From: Curtobacterium sp. ER1/6
Lineage (GTDB): Bacteria; Actinomycetota; Actinomycetes; Actinomycetales; Microbacteriaceae
Length of the DNA: 64,000 nucleotides
Direction of reading: 5' to 3'
Assembly (NCBI RefSeq): GCF_001742745.1
Contig: NZ_MJAK01000005.1
Coordinates: forward strand, 124,001-188,000
The position numbers and the translations under genes are program-made. Below are positions 3,708-12,506 of the stretch, one piece after another. Positions within the stretch are counted from its first letter, which is position 1. Each line of letters opens with the position of its first letter. The notes beneath the pieces are model-generated. The model did no database searches. It saw only the letters and a list, made by a program, of their open reading frames with translations, and had not been told where the DNA came from.

Positions 3708-4310
3708 ATGTCCCGTGTCACCCCTCGTGCTGCCCGCCTGGCGGCCTGGATCGCCGTTCCCGCCGCCCTCGTGGCGTCGGGCGTCGTCGTCTCGACGGCT
3801 TCGTACTCGGCCTTCTCGGCCACCACGTCCACGCCGACCAGCAACTGGACCGCCGGCACCGTCGCCCTGTCGAACGACGCCACGGCCAACACCGCGCTGT
3901 TCGCGGCGACGAACCTCAAGCCGGGGTCGACCGACAGCAGGTGCATCACGGTGACGTCGAGCGGGTCGCTGCCGTCGACCGTGAAGCTGTACGCCACGAG
4001 CCCGCAGACCTCGAGCGCGCTCGCCACGAACACCACGATCAAGATCGAGCAGGGGACCGGCGGCGGCTTCGCCTCGTGCGCGGGCTTCACGCCGGCGGCG
4101 ACCGGCGGCACGCTCTTCAACGACAGTCTGCCGAACCTCGGCACGCAGGCGACCGGCTTCGGCAACGGTCTCGGCGCGTGGACCACCACCGGCGGCACGA
4201 ACGAGACGCGCGTCTACCGGGTCACCTACTCGGTGGCCGCGGCGACGCCGAACGCCGCGCAGGGCACGACCGCGTCGGTCGGCCTCACGTGGGAGGCCCA
4301 GAACAACTAG
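3708..4310 (+). CDS. TasA/CalY-like secreted protein processed by SipW-type peptidase
   Basis: A 200-aa exported protein. The N-terminus has a basic stretch (SRVTPRAAR), a hydrophobic core (about residues 12-32), then SYSAFSATTSTPTSNWTAGTVAL. This resembles the SipW-type signal peptide and first strand of TasA/camelysin proteins, where a short-lived F-S-[AD]-T motif precedes the mature strand. The body is Thr/Gly/Ala-rich, predicted beta, with a few Cys. TasA relatives form surface fibres. RBS GGAGG lies 9 nt upstream. The peptidase gene follows by 19 bp, which supports the assignment. Whether it polymerises is unknown. Confidence 0.75.
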   Translation: MSRVTPRAARLAAWIAVPAALVASGVVVSTASYSAFSATTSTPTSNWTAGTVALSNDATANTALFAATNLKPGSTDSRCITVTSSGSLPSTVKLYATSPQTSSALATNTTIKIEQGTGGGFASCAGFTPAATGGTLFNDSLPNLGTQATGFGNGLGAWTTTGGTNETRVYRVTYSVAAATPNAAQGTTASVGLTWEAQNN

Positions 4311-4329: not shown

Positions 4330-5535
4330 ATGGTCAGCATCGCCGTTCGCGGAGCCGCAGCGCCGCACGACGGGCTGCACGACGCCGTCGACTGGGGTCG
4401 GGTGGTCGTCGCGACGGCGGCCCGTGCGGTCCTCGCGGCCCTCGTCGGCCTCGCCGTCTGGTCGGCCGCGCCGGCGCTGCTCGGCTGGCACCCGACCACG
4501 GTGATGACCGGCTCGATGGCACCGCGGCTCCTGCCGGGCGACGTCGTCGTCTCGCGCCCGGTCGCCCCGGCCGAGGTCCGGCCCGGGCAGGTGCTGCTCG
4601 CCGACGACCCGGACCACCCGGGGCGCCTGCGCATGCACCGGTTCGTCGAGCCCGGCCGCGACGGGACCGTCGTCACGAAGGGCGACGCCAACCCGCAGGC
4701 CGACTCGACGCCGATCGAGCGCTCGGCCGTGCACGGGGTTGCCGCCCTCCGCGTCCCGTTCGTCGCGAGTCCGGTCCTCTGGGTCCGCGAGGGGCGGTGG
4801 GTCGAGACCGGCGTCCTCACCCTCGTGGTCGTCGCGCTGCTCGCGCTCGCGACCGTCGACGGGGCGCTCCGGCGGCCGGCCGCGCACCGCGCTGCACGTC
4901 GTGCCGGGCACGCCGGCCCCGTCGCCGACGCTGCGGTGACCGGCCGGGAGGCACGTGGGGCCCCCGACGTCGGCTCGCCGTCCGTCGCGGGTCCCGACCC
5001 GAGCCGTCGGTCGCTCCGTCCCGTCGCGCGCCGGGGCAGCGGGGTCCGTCGTGACCGGTCCCGTCGTGCCGGGGCGGATCGCGGCCGGGCCCACCGTGCC
5101 GGGGCGGTCGTGCTCGTCGTGCTCGCCGCGGGCGGGTCCGTCGTGCTGCCCGCCGGCCGGGCGGACGCGGGGCCCTTCGGCCGGGCGACGGCGACCGACC
5201 TCCGGCTCACCGCGGCCGTCGTGGCGCCCGCGACGTCGCCGACGTGCACCGACGCGAGCGGCTCCGTCGTCATCGCGTGGCAGTACGCCGGGGACGACCC
5301 TCGGTCGTTCACCCTGTCGGACGACACCGGCGCCGTGCTCGCGACGACCGACGGCAGGGCCCGGTCGGCCACCGTCCGGCTGAGCAGCCTGCTCGCCCTC
5401 GGGACCACCCGGGCGGTCCGGGTGCAGGCCACCGACGCGAGCTCGTGGACCGCCGCGCCGAGCGCGCCCGTGTCCGTCCGGTACTCGTCCCTCGCGGGGA
5501 TCGGCCTCGGGGACGGGACCAGCTGCGTCCGCTGA
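4330..5535 (+). CDS. SipW/ER-type signal peptidase I with C-terminal membrane-anchored extension
   Basis: A 401-aa protein. The first ~175 residues are a signal peptidase of the archaeal/ER (SipW) type: one N-terminal TM, catalytic Ser in TGSMAPRLLPGD (S62), His replacing Lys in RLRMHRFVE (H103), Asp in TKGDAN (D119), then a C-terminal TM (about 153-175). SipW proteins usually end there, near 190-250 aa. Here about 85 Arg-rich residues follow, then a second hydrophobic segment (about 262-280) and a ~115-aa extracellular domain resembling an Ig/Fn3-like fold. Substrate is probably the upstream TasA-like protein. The extension could be a fused second surface substrate. Confidence 0.8.
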   Translation: MVSIAVRGAAAPHDGLHDAVDWGRVVVATAARAVLAALVGLAVWSAAPALLGWHPTTVMTGSMAPRLLPGDVVVSRPVAPAEVRPGQVLLADDPDHPGRLRMHRFVEPGRDGTVVTKGDANPQADSTPIERSAVHGVAALRVPFVASPVLWVREGRWVETGVLTLVVVALLALATVDGALRRPAAHRAARRAGHAGPVADAAVTGREARGAPDVGSPSVAGPDPSRRSLRPVARRGSGVRRDRSRRAGADRGRAHRAGAVVLVVLAAGGSVVLPAGRADAGPFGRATATDLRLTAAVVAPATSPTCTDASGSVVIAWQYAGDDPRSFTLSDDTGAVLATTDGRARSATVRLSSLLALGTTRAVRVQATDASSWTAAPSAPVSVRYSSLAGIGLGDGTSCVR

Positions 5536-9902: not shown

Positions 9903-10079
9903 CTACGGCGACGGTGTGGCGTCCACCGTGCCGTCGGGCGGCGGCAGGATGTCCGCGGCGATCCACGGGAACACCCAGGTGAAGAGCGCGTAGACGATCA
10001 CGGCGAGCAGCACGAGCAGCTCGAGGACCTTCAGGGCGGCGGGGCCGGGCAGGATCCGCCAGACGAACGGGAAGATCAC
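9903..10079 (-). CDS. Small single-TM protein coupled to the sortase
   Basis: A 58-aa protein starting VIFPFVWRILPGP. It has one strong TM (LELLVLLAVIVYALFTWVFPWIA, about residues 19-41) and a short Pro/Asp tail. The GTG start overlaps the sortase stop by 4 nt (GTGA), so translation is coupled. Such mini membrane proteins beside class E sortases may be accessory subunits. I do not recognise a named family. Confidence 0.75.
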   Translation of the reverse strand: MIFPFVWRILPGPAALKVLELLVLLAVIVYALFTWVFPWIAADILPPPDGTVDATPSP

Positions 10080-10882
10080 TTCGGCGTCTCCGAGAGTTCC
10101 TTGGGGGTGCCCTCCGAGACGGGCATCCAGTAGTCGAGCTTGGCGTGCGTGACGTACCGCTCCTTGGCCGACCACATCGGGTGGCACGCGGTGAGGGTGA
10201 GCCAGCGGTCCTCGGCGGTCGGCGTGACCCCGGGCTGGTTCGGCACCGGCGCGATCGTCTCGATCTTGTCCGGCGTCACGATCTGGGAGTCGGTGACCTT
10301 GTAGACGTACCAGACGTCGAAGTCCTTCGCCTTGTCCGTCACCCGGACGACGATCGGGTCGCCCGGCTTCAGGTCGGCGATCTGGTTGAGCGGCTTGCCG
10401 TAGGTCACGCGGTGCCCGGCGACGGCGAAGTTGCCCTCGGCGCCCGGCATGGCGGTGTCCTGGTAGTGGCCGAGGCCGATCGTGTTGAGCACGCGCTCGC
10501 GGTCCGTGCCCTCGCCGATCGGGCGGAGGTAGTCCGCGCCGAAGCGGGGGATCTGCATGGTCCCGAACACGTCCGTCAGGTCCGGCGGCTCGGCGAGTAC
10601 CGGTGCCTCGCCGCGGTGCTCGGAGCCCTCGAGCTTCGGTGCCTGCTGCTGCCCGAGGTCGTCGACGAGCTTGGTCTGCTCGTTCACGGCGACGACGTCG
10701 GTCCACCACGCGGTCCACGCGACGTAGAGCCCGGTGCCGGCGCCCGCGATGATGAGGAGCTCGGCCAGCAGTGAGACGAGCGCTCCGCCGACGGACTGGC
10801 GACGTCGAGTGCGCCGTGGCGGCCGCTGGTCCTCGGCGTCGCGCTCCGAGCTGCGCGACGGGGCGGTGTCGTGTGCGGTCAC
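10076..10882 (-). CDS. Class E sortase
   Basis: A 268-aa membrane transpeptidase that would anchor LPxTG/LAxTG-type proteins to peptidoglycan. It has an Arg-rich cytoplasmic N-terminus, one TM (about residues 31-55), then the sortase barrel. Catalytic His is in FAVAGHRVTYG, Cys in LTLTACHP, and Arg in the following ERYVTHAKL. TACHP and the long N-terminus are class E hallmarks. GTG start 10882 is preceded by CAGGAG; TATACC further upstream could be its -10. No sortase substrate is next to it. Confidence 0.92.
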   Translation of the reverse strand: MTAHDTAPSRSSERDAEDQRPPRRTRRRQSVGGALVSLLAELLIIAGAGTGLYVAWTAWWTDVVAVNEQTKLVDDLGQQQAPKLEGSEHRGEAPVLAEPPDLTDVFGTMQIPRFGADYLRPIGEGTDRERVLNTIGLGHYQDTAMPGAEGNFAVAGHRVTYGKPLNQIADLKPGDPIVVRVTDKAKDFDVWYVYKVTDSQIVTPDKIETIAPVPNQPGVTPTAEDRWLTLTACHPMWSAKERYVTHAKLDYWMPVSEGTPKELSETPK

Positions 10883-10991
10883 GGTGCTCCTGATCCAGGT
10901 GGTGGTCGAACAGGTATAGCAGACCACGACGACGAGCCGGTGGGGGTGTGGACGGACCGGGCGGTGCACGGTGCGGGGCTACCGTGGCGGG

Positions 10992-11504: not shown

Positions 11505-12506
11505 CTACGCGAGCGCGAGACCGACCGAGGCCGCGAACGCCAGCGCGATGCCCGTCCACTGCACGCCGGTGAGCCGCTCGCGCAGGGCCACCCCGGCGAG
11601 CACGACCGTGCCGACGGGGTAGAGCGCGTTGAGGACGCTGACGACCGGCAGCGTCGCGTCGTCCGTCCCGACGTGCAGCGCGGCCTGGATGCAGGCGTTC
11701 GCGAGCGCGTCGAGCAGCCCGCAGGCGACGACGGCGACGACCGCCCGGCGCGACCAGCGCGACGAGCGCGACGAGCGCGACGAGCGCGACGAGCGCGACG
11801 AGCGCGACGAGCGCGACGAGCGCGACGAGCGCGACGAGCGCGGGGTGACCGCGGCAGACCGCCCGGGGTGGGCCGTCGTGCCGGGATCCGCCGGGCCTCC
11901 CGTCCGACGCAGCGCGACCACGACCACCGCCGCACCCAGCACGACCGTCTGCACCACCCGCGCGACCAGCAGCGACGCGACCCCGGCGTCGGCCGGTACC
12001 GCGTCGTAGGCGAGCACGATCCCGCCGAACCCGCACCCCGCCACCGCCGCCGTGACGACACCGGTCACGGTGACCCGCGCGCCCGAGGCATCCCGCACGG
12101 CCGCGACGAGCACCACCGCGACCACCGCGACCACCAGCGCGACCGACGCCGGCACGGACAGCACCGTCCCGCGCACCAGGGCGACCACGACGGGCGTGAC
12201 GGCCGCGAACACCGCGGTCAGCGGCGACAGGACGCTCATCGGGCCGACGGCGAGGGCGCGGTAGAGCAGGAGCACCGCCACCGACCCCGAGACCCCGGCC
12301 GCCACCCCAGCGAGGACCGCCTGCCCGGAGAAGCCGGCCCCCACCACCGGCATCCCGGCCAGCAGGGGGAGCAGGCCGAGCGCGGCGGCCGCTGCGGCGA
12401 CGCGCACCGCACGGACGCGACGCGCGGCGAGGCCGCCGAGGAAGTCGGCGGCCCCGTAGACGACCGCGCCGGTCAGGCCGAGCAGGACGGTGAGCACGGC
12501 TCCCAT
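11505..12506 (-). CDS. EamA/DMT-superfamily transporter with Ser-Ser-Arg repeat loop
   Basis: A 333-aa, about 10-TM drug/metabolite transporter with two EamA halves (residues 1-150 and about 150-333). The second half ends in VVSVLNALYPVGTVVLAGVALRE, a typical EamA motif. Between TM7 and TM8 a cytoplasmic loop contains about nine SSR tripeptides from a 9-bp microsatellite. The ATG at 12506 fits the first TM; the longer frame upstream runs antisense into the divergent CPBP gene. Substrate unknown. Confidence 0.85.
   Translation of the reverse strand: MGAVLTVLLGLTGAVVYGAADFLGGLAARRVRAVRVAAAAAALGLLPLLAGMPVVGAGFSGQAVLAGVAAGVSGSVAVLLLYRALAVGPMSVLSPLTAVFAAVTPVVVALVRGTVLSVPASVALVVAVVAVVLVAAVRDASGARVTVTGVVTAAVAGCGFGGIVLAYDAVPADAGVASLLVARVVQTVVLGAAVVVVALRRTGGPADPGTTAHPGRSAAVTPRSSRSSRSSRSSRSSRSSRSSRSSRSSRWSRRAVVAVVACGLLDALANACIQAALHVGTDDATLPVVSVLNALYPVGTVVLAGVALRERLTGVQWTGIALAFAASVGLALA
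11761..11841 (+). repeat. 9-bp microsatellite, nine exact units
   Basis: GACGAGCGC is repeated nine times without change, preceded by one GACCAGCGC. On the minus strand it encodes (SSR)n in the transporter loop. Since the unit is three codons, length change alters the loop without frameshift. Confidence 0.95.

Follow-up and report, generated by a model that had tools for sequence, protein, structure and literature searches.

The usual view of a signal peptidase is of an enzyme whose substrates are other proteins. Excerpts of the articles cited in this paragraph describe the systems closest to the one reported here. TapA and TasA of Bacillus subtilis are encoded apart, in the arrangement tapA-sipW-tasA (PMC9674648), with overlapping tapA and sipW genes, and both proteins are processed by SipW (PMC9674648, PMC10151520). 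TasA subunits polymerise through an N-terminal donor strand, and the filament begins with TapA (PMC9674648, PMC10151520), whose Ig fold is complete and whose N-terminus is donated to TasA (PMC10151520). In TasA, an aromatic residue at P2' marks the SipW substrate and is associated with its poor cleavage by LepB of E. coli (PMC10269814). In addition to processing, a second role of B. subtilis SipW, in the control of biofilm genes, has been reported (cited in PMC13082335).

The window, by which we mean the whole stretch of 64,000 nucleotides of Curtobacterium sp. ER1/6 DNA that was analysed, carries a gene at 4330–5535 that encodes, in order, a SipW-type peptidase, a linker, a hydrophobic segment (the third of the protein) and a beta domain on the extracellular side. 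The features of the locus are as follows:

3708–4310, + strand: TasA/camelysin-like protein, 200 aa, predicted in-trans substrate and filament subunit (Pfam Peptidase_M73, synteny)
4330–5535, + strand: SipW-substrate fusion gene (predicted), 401 aa, a single open reading frame from the ATG at 4330 to the TGA ending at 5535
4402–4479, + strand: first membrane helix, residues ~25–50 (hydropathy; AF2 helix 13–50)
4513–4515, + strand: codon of the catalytic Ser62 (S in 34/34 rows; role by SipW/ER-type family)
4636–4638, + strand: codon of the catalytic His103 (H in 34/34 rows)
4798–4869, + strand: second membrane helix, residues ~157–180 (hydropathy; AF2 helix 157–191)
4870–5088, + strand: linker, residues 181–253, presumed cytoplasmic, Arg-rich, with conserved E207-A208 (pLDDT mostly <50)
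5089–5169, + strand: third hydrophobic segment, predicted internal SipW-type signal peptide, residues 254–280, ending in A278-D-A280
5161–5169, + strand: A-x-A signal-peptidase site, predicted cut between 5169 and 5170 (conservation of A278 and A280)
5170–5232, + strand: disordered N-terminus of the predicted released cargo, residues 281–301, putatively donor-strand-like (low pLDDT; family-level likeness to TasA-like N-termini)
5233–5532, + strand: FN3-like domain, residues 302–401, with invariant C306, W373 and C399

A preliminary description of this DNA had proposed a true fusion, with ~225 residues added to a SipW-type peptidase, and had named a frameshift separating two genes as the finding that would speak against it. 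No frameshift was seen. Both other forward frames are interrupted by stops across 4330–5535, the single frame is kept in 30/30 loci extracted from the same-genus genomes (n = 36), one of which (L027) runs into a contig edge, and all 62 non-redundant fused genes read as one frame, so a frameshift or two-gene artefact is ruled out. The peptidase part is followed by ~220 further residues in one intact frame of 401 residues, close to what had been described. The GC content at codon position 3 in 4330–5535 is 0.80 in the linker against 0.96–0.99, which is expected for an Arg-rich linker under weak constraint. The linker is variable, with conserved spots at E207 (32/34), A208 (33/34) and R226 (32/34).

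The peptidase part comprises residues 1 to ~182 and is of the SipW/ER type, with Ser-His and not Ser-Lys. Ser62 and His103, both given in the preliminary description, do not vary in any of the 34 aligned relatives, and neither do D119 and D125. The 401-aa protein scores 50.4 bits against TIGR02228, just under the cut-off of 51.85 that the fused relatives L085, L086, L089 and L091 pass, and it does not reach the Bacillus SipW equivalog model NF046067 (24.7 vs 190 bits). A PDB search with the peptidase family profile matched human SEC11A and SEC11C (E from 7e-7 to 4e-5). Judged by these matches, the peptidase is SipW-like without being a Bacillus equivalog. A departure from the catalytic motif occurs in L090, a fused relative with WD40/fn3 cargo: Thr-Met replaces Ser-Met there, and this peptidase may be inactive or Thr-using.

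The same description had counted a further transmembrane segment and a membrane-anchored domain behind the peptidase. A third hydrophobic segment does exist, and AF2 models residues 254–272 as a helix (in a full-length model of low confidence, pTM 0.38), but it ends in a conserved A-x-A and looks signal-like. It is preceded by an Arg-rich stretch and followed by a near-neutral one, in which G-P-F comes directly after A278-D-A280. A278 is present in 34/34 rows and A280 in 33/34, with Gly in the remaining row, while positions 277, 279 and 281 are variable and the cargo of the same 34 relatives is only ~46% conserved per column. With the aromatic residue as the anchor, the 35 fused proteins that have Pro before it show Ala at -5 in 35/35 and at -3 in 34/35; the other 27 are looser, with Ala at -2 in 20/27 and at -4 in 14/27. 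This aromatic-anchored tally and the 34-row column tally are the unbiased counts, whereas those of 60 and 61 out of 62 are inflated because the best A-x-A near each segment was picked. At such picked sites, the aromatic occupies P2' or P3' in 57/62 fused proteins: in the window's protein and its nearest kin it stands at P3' behind a proline, and the group without this proline fits P2'. Taken together, the third segment looks like a cleavable SipW-type signal peptide, beyond a mere anchor, and these marks make the C-terminal domain likelier to be a released substrate than a built-in anchor or assembly domain.

The extracellular beta domain of the preliminary description was found again at residues 302–399 of the AF2 model, and the structure prediction of the C-terminal part that it had suggested revealed an FN3 fold. 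The model of the mature cargo domain (mean pLDDT 83.2) matches 1k85 in Foldseek with E 1.5e-4 and TMt 0.79, and the structural alignment to the same entry gives a VIA Z of 11.3 and 1.9 Å over 85 residues; a novel fold is thereby ruled out. By sequence, Pfam fn3 had no match in the window's cargo, and NCBIfam had none for the cargo or for the upstream TasA-like protein, in the latter case at E ≤ 10. C306, W373 and C399 are invariant, suggesting a C306/C399 disulfide in the domain. A reading of the cargo as a TasA copy is unsupported past the N-terminus, where the FN3 domain has no match to the TasA-like protein (5.6%).

Only 19 nt separate the fusion gene from the gene at 3708–4310. The preliminary claim that this neighbour is TasA-like is supported by a match of its product to Pfam Peptidase_M73 that lies below the cut-off (E = 4e-4, 20.6 bits, cut-off 22.5) and by its position, since a TasA-like gene lies directly upstream in 59/62 fused loci (none is clear at L091, L092 and L102). 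The profile of the TasA-like family reached the TasA structures 8aur and 5of1 at E of 0.18–0.23 only. TasA-type precursors are the predicted substrates of the peptidase, and the gene neighbourhood agrees with this. When a profile of the upstream N-termini (40/58 distinct TasA-like N-termini, some of them from unfused loci) was compared with a profile of the internal segments (46/62), the two aligned with a probability of 96.5% and E = 1e-9 over 25 columns, which span the cleavage region into the mature part. Used as a search model (the TasA N-terminus model), the profile of the upstream N-termini matched the internal site in 31/62 fused proteins at E ≤ 0.01 and in 58/62 at E ≤ 1, with 0/310 shuffled tails, 0/62 reversed proteins and 1/62 peptidase parts matched in controls. 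The window's own protein is among the 4/62 without a match at E ≤ 1 and was likewise unmatched in the scan of its own genome; its TasA-type motif is degenerate, and the likeness to TasA N-termini holds at the family level. A match to C1 in that scan (E 0.016) was rejected as chance, C1 being a cytochrome c-type protein as judged by its two CxxCH motifs. At the family level, the sequences suggest that the fused cargo bears a SipW-type signal, with A-x-A, then an aromatic, and a TasA-type N-terminus.

Peptidase matches were found in 44/59 genomes, including all 36 of the same genus (the window's own among them), and in 75/150 genomes of the same family at E ≤ 1e-10. The 30 loci fetched from the family survey comprise the 17 best-scoring, which are fused, and 13 others, which are unfused. 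In the phylum survey, 22 matches in 21/396 genomes at E ≤ 1e-20 were divided into 11 fused and 11 unfused. Over all fetched loci, 62/87 non-redundant peptidases carry at least 150 residues past the peptidase part. L033 and L034 (proteins identical to L003 and L005) and L027 (truncated at a contig edge) were dropped from the rows, and L031 (a near copy of L029) and the LamG-type L037, L040 and L041, as well as L002, were left out of alignment A1. Pfam applied to 20 fused proteins gave Laminin_G_3 in 7, Ice_binding in 3, and RCC1, WD40 with fn3, and a Gly-rich match in 1 each, with no match for the cargo in the remaining 7. Judging from the sequences, the peptidase is kept while the cargo is swapped among relatives (FN3-like, LamG, ice-binding, RCC1, WD40 and Gly-rich), and the cargo is mostly adhesin-like. 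In L066, L068 and L069, a SipW-type peptidase is joined to an ice-binding domain (PF11999) behind a similar internal signal, and the product could be a surface ice adhesin. Residues 445–539 of L059, which lie in a LamG cargo, weakly match the NCBIfam model for the TafC family fimbrial protein (E 0.0015, far below the cut-off); a search of the open-access literature gave no article naming TafC.

In a tree of 66 of the 87 non-redundant peptidases, one group with support of 96/97 unites every fused row (44) with 4 that are unfused (L087, L088, L094 and L095), and the LamG-carrying L037 and L040 are nested within the FN3 Curtobacterium group. The preliminary description had also proposed looking for relatives in which the cargo is a separate gene, and such relatives exist. 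A protein with a SipW-type signal starts within ~30 nt of the sipW stop in 6 of the 11 unfused phylum loci (L088, L093, L096, L097, L099 and L101; L100 is ambiguous). A further case is the second SipW-like locus of the same genome, L002, where a separate LamG gene of 284 aa runs from nt 952 on, with its start codon overlapping the sipW stop. Its product can be aligned to the cargo of 10 fused relatives of the LamG type (best L064, 43% identity, E = 5e-69), with alignments that begin at the internal signal in most, and its N-terminus matches the TasA N-terminus model weakly (E = 0.12). The simplest history that these sequences suggest is that neighbouring sipW and substrate genes became fused, with some later changes; the tree itself is without direction.

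Compared with the described systems, the peptidase resembles B. subtilis SipW and ER-type enzymes in its Ser-His dyad, its match to TIGR02228 with a weak match to the SipW model, and its adjoining TasA-like gene. Unlike B. subtilis SipW, it would bear at its C-terminus a complete substrate together with the internal signal of that substrate. By analogy (PMC10151520), the cargo may resemble TapA: it is modelled with an Ig/FN3-like fold that is probably complete, its N-terminus, which is disordered in the model, may correspond to the TasA donor strand, and SipW would process it. In contrast to TapA, it is fused to SipW and is FN3, not V-set Ig; the likeness is one of fold and description. The upstream protein and the internal segment share the A-F/W-S/T...N..F/W.AGT-type N-terminus of TasA/camelysin (Peptidase_M73), whereas the window's cargo is FN3-like and without a match past the N-terminus. 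The arrangement at L002 is identical but split in two genes: its LamG protein with a SipW-type signal is encoded separately, from a start lying over the sipW stop, while the cargo of the fusion is FN3 and joined.

It appears to us highly probable that the C-terminal part represents a complete substrate of SipW, joined to the very peptidase that would process it. If, instead, the third segment were a permanent anchor, the FN3 domain would stay tethered and would bind substrate, the cell wall or the growing filament. The helix at 254–272 is an ordinary one, a tether would hold filaments on the cell, and the Pro at P2' in the Curtobacterium group is un-TasA-like, all of which fit an anchor. However, an anchor would give no cause for the near-absolute conservation of the A-x-A, the ends of TasA-like signals match the segment, and in the split relatives the same kind of segment is an N-terminal signal; we regard a permanent anchor as unlikely, though deserving of some weight. 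Improbable, too, is that the cargo is freed by the housekeeping signal peptidase I of the LepB type, the fusion serving only co-expression or co-localisation. For type I signal peptidases in general, A-D-A|G is a standard site, and the aromatic of the window's protein lies at P3', not P2', yet the constant pairing with a SipW-type peptidase and a TasA-type N-terminus, and the 57/62 proteins with an aromatic at P2' or P3' of the picked sites, argue against LepB.

The reported role of B. subtilis SipW in biofilm gene control (cited in PMC13082335) would suit a C-terminal part that served a bifunctional SipW in regulation or sensing and was not a substrate. We give this very little credence: the cargo type differs between close relatives that retain the peptidase, and domains like those of the cargo are common on secreted proteins. 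Hardly credible is the making of two proteins, with the cargo made alone through a frameshift or an internal start. An in-frame ATG, GTG or TTG does lie between helices 2 and 3 in 49/62 fused genes, but an ATG in only 5/62, and an ATG or GTG behind a Shine–Dalgarno-like stretch in only 3/62, so an internal start for the cargo is unlikely; all 62 genes, moreover, keep the single frame.

The overall best explanation, which we hold with reasonable but limited conviction, is a peptidase–substrate fusion whose cargo is cut free and caps or starts a TasA-like filament. The chain would be inserted such that the linker lies inside and the FN3 domain outside, and the peptidase domain, of the same or a neighbouring molecule, would cut after A280. 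The cut FN3 cargo would thereby gain a free N-terminal strand, and, in a less certain step, this strand would complete the first TasA-like subunit (the 3708–4310 product), the cargo serving as filament starter or cap in the manner of TapA of B. subtilis. We consider that the cargo is probably cleaved, and that SipW rather than LepB is somewhat favoured as the enzyme; cleavage in cis could occur, although we lean slightly against it. The TapA-like role, drawn by analogy, is put forward tentatively. The same caution applies to the locus as a self-processing polyprotein, in which the SipW domain might free its own swappable cargo to become the first subunit, or the tip, of a donor-strand filament of the TasA-like kind; on that reading, the fusion would supply exactly one filament starter per peptidase. 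The preliminary idea that the protein could assemble as well as cleave survives in part: like TapA, the domain may serve to start or cap a TasA-like filament, more likely as a released substrate than as a built-in assembly domain of the peptidase.

A search of titles and abstract starts in the open-access literature, with subscription journals largely outside it, did not find a SipW–substrate fusion with an internal signal. The parts are individually known; a fusion of a signal peptidase to its own substrate was not found described, though it may have been reported elsewhere. A peptidase carrying its own substrate would make cis cleavage directly testable, and through the fusion, peptidase and filament starter would be present in a fixed ratio. 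Filaments of the TasA type, which are known from Bacillus, would extend to a broad range of Actinobacteria, with tips that can be read and are swappable. For annotation, a long 'signal peptidase I' with a third hydrophobic segment, an A-x-A and an aromatic soon after it may be taken as a possible peptidase–substrate fusion.

Elsewhere in the window, a sortase-domain protein (PF04203, E 2.7e-30) is encoded on the - strand at 10076–10969, 4.5 kb from the fusion gene. The open reading frame at 12–2126 encodes a DEAD-box helicase-like protein, as judged by motifs, which has at its N-terminus a long array of repeats rich in Arg and Asp. At ~11650–12000, a long simple repeat, translated in several frames as (SSR)n or (RRA)n, sits within a membrane-transporter-like open reading frame on the - strand.
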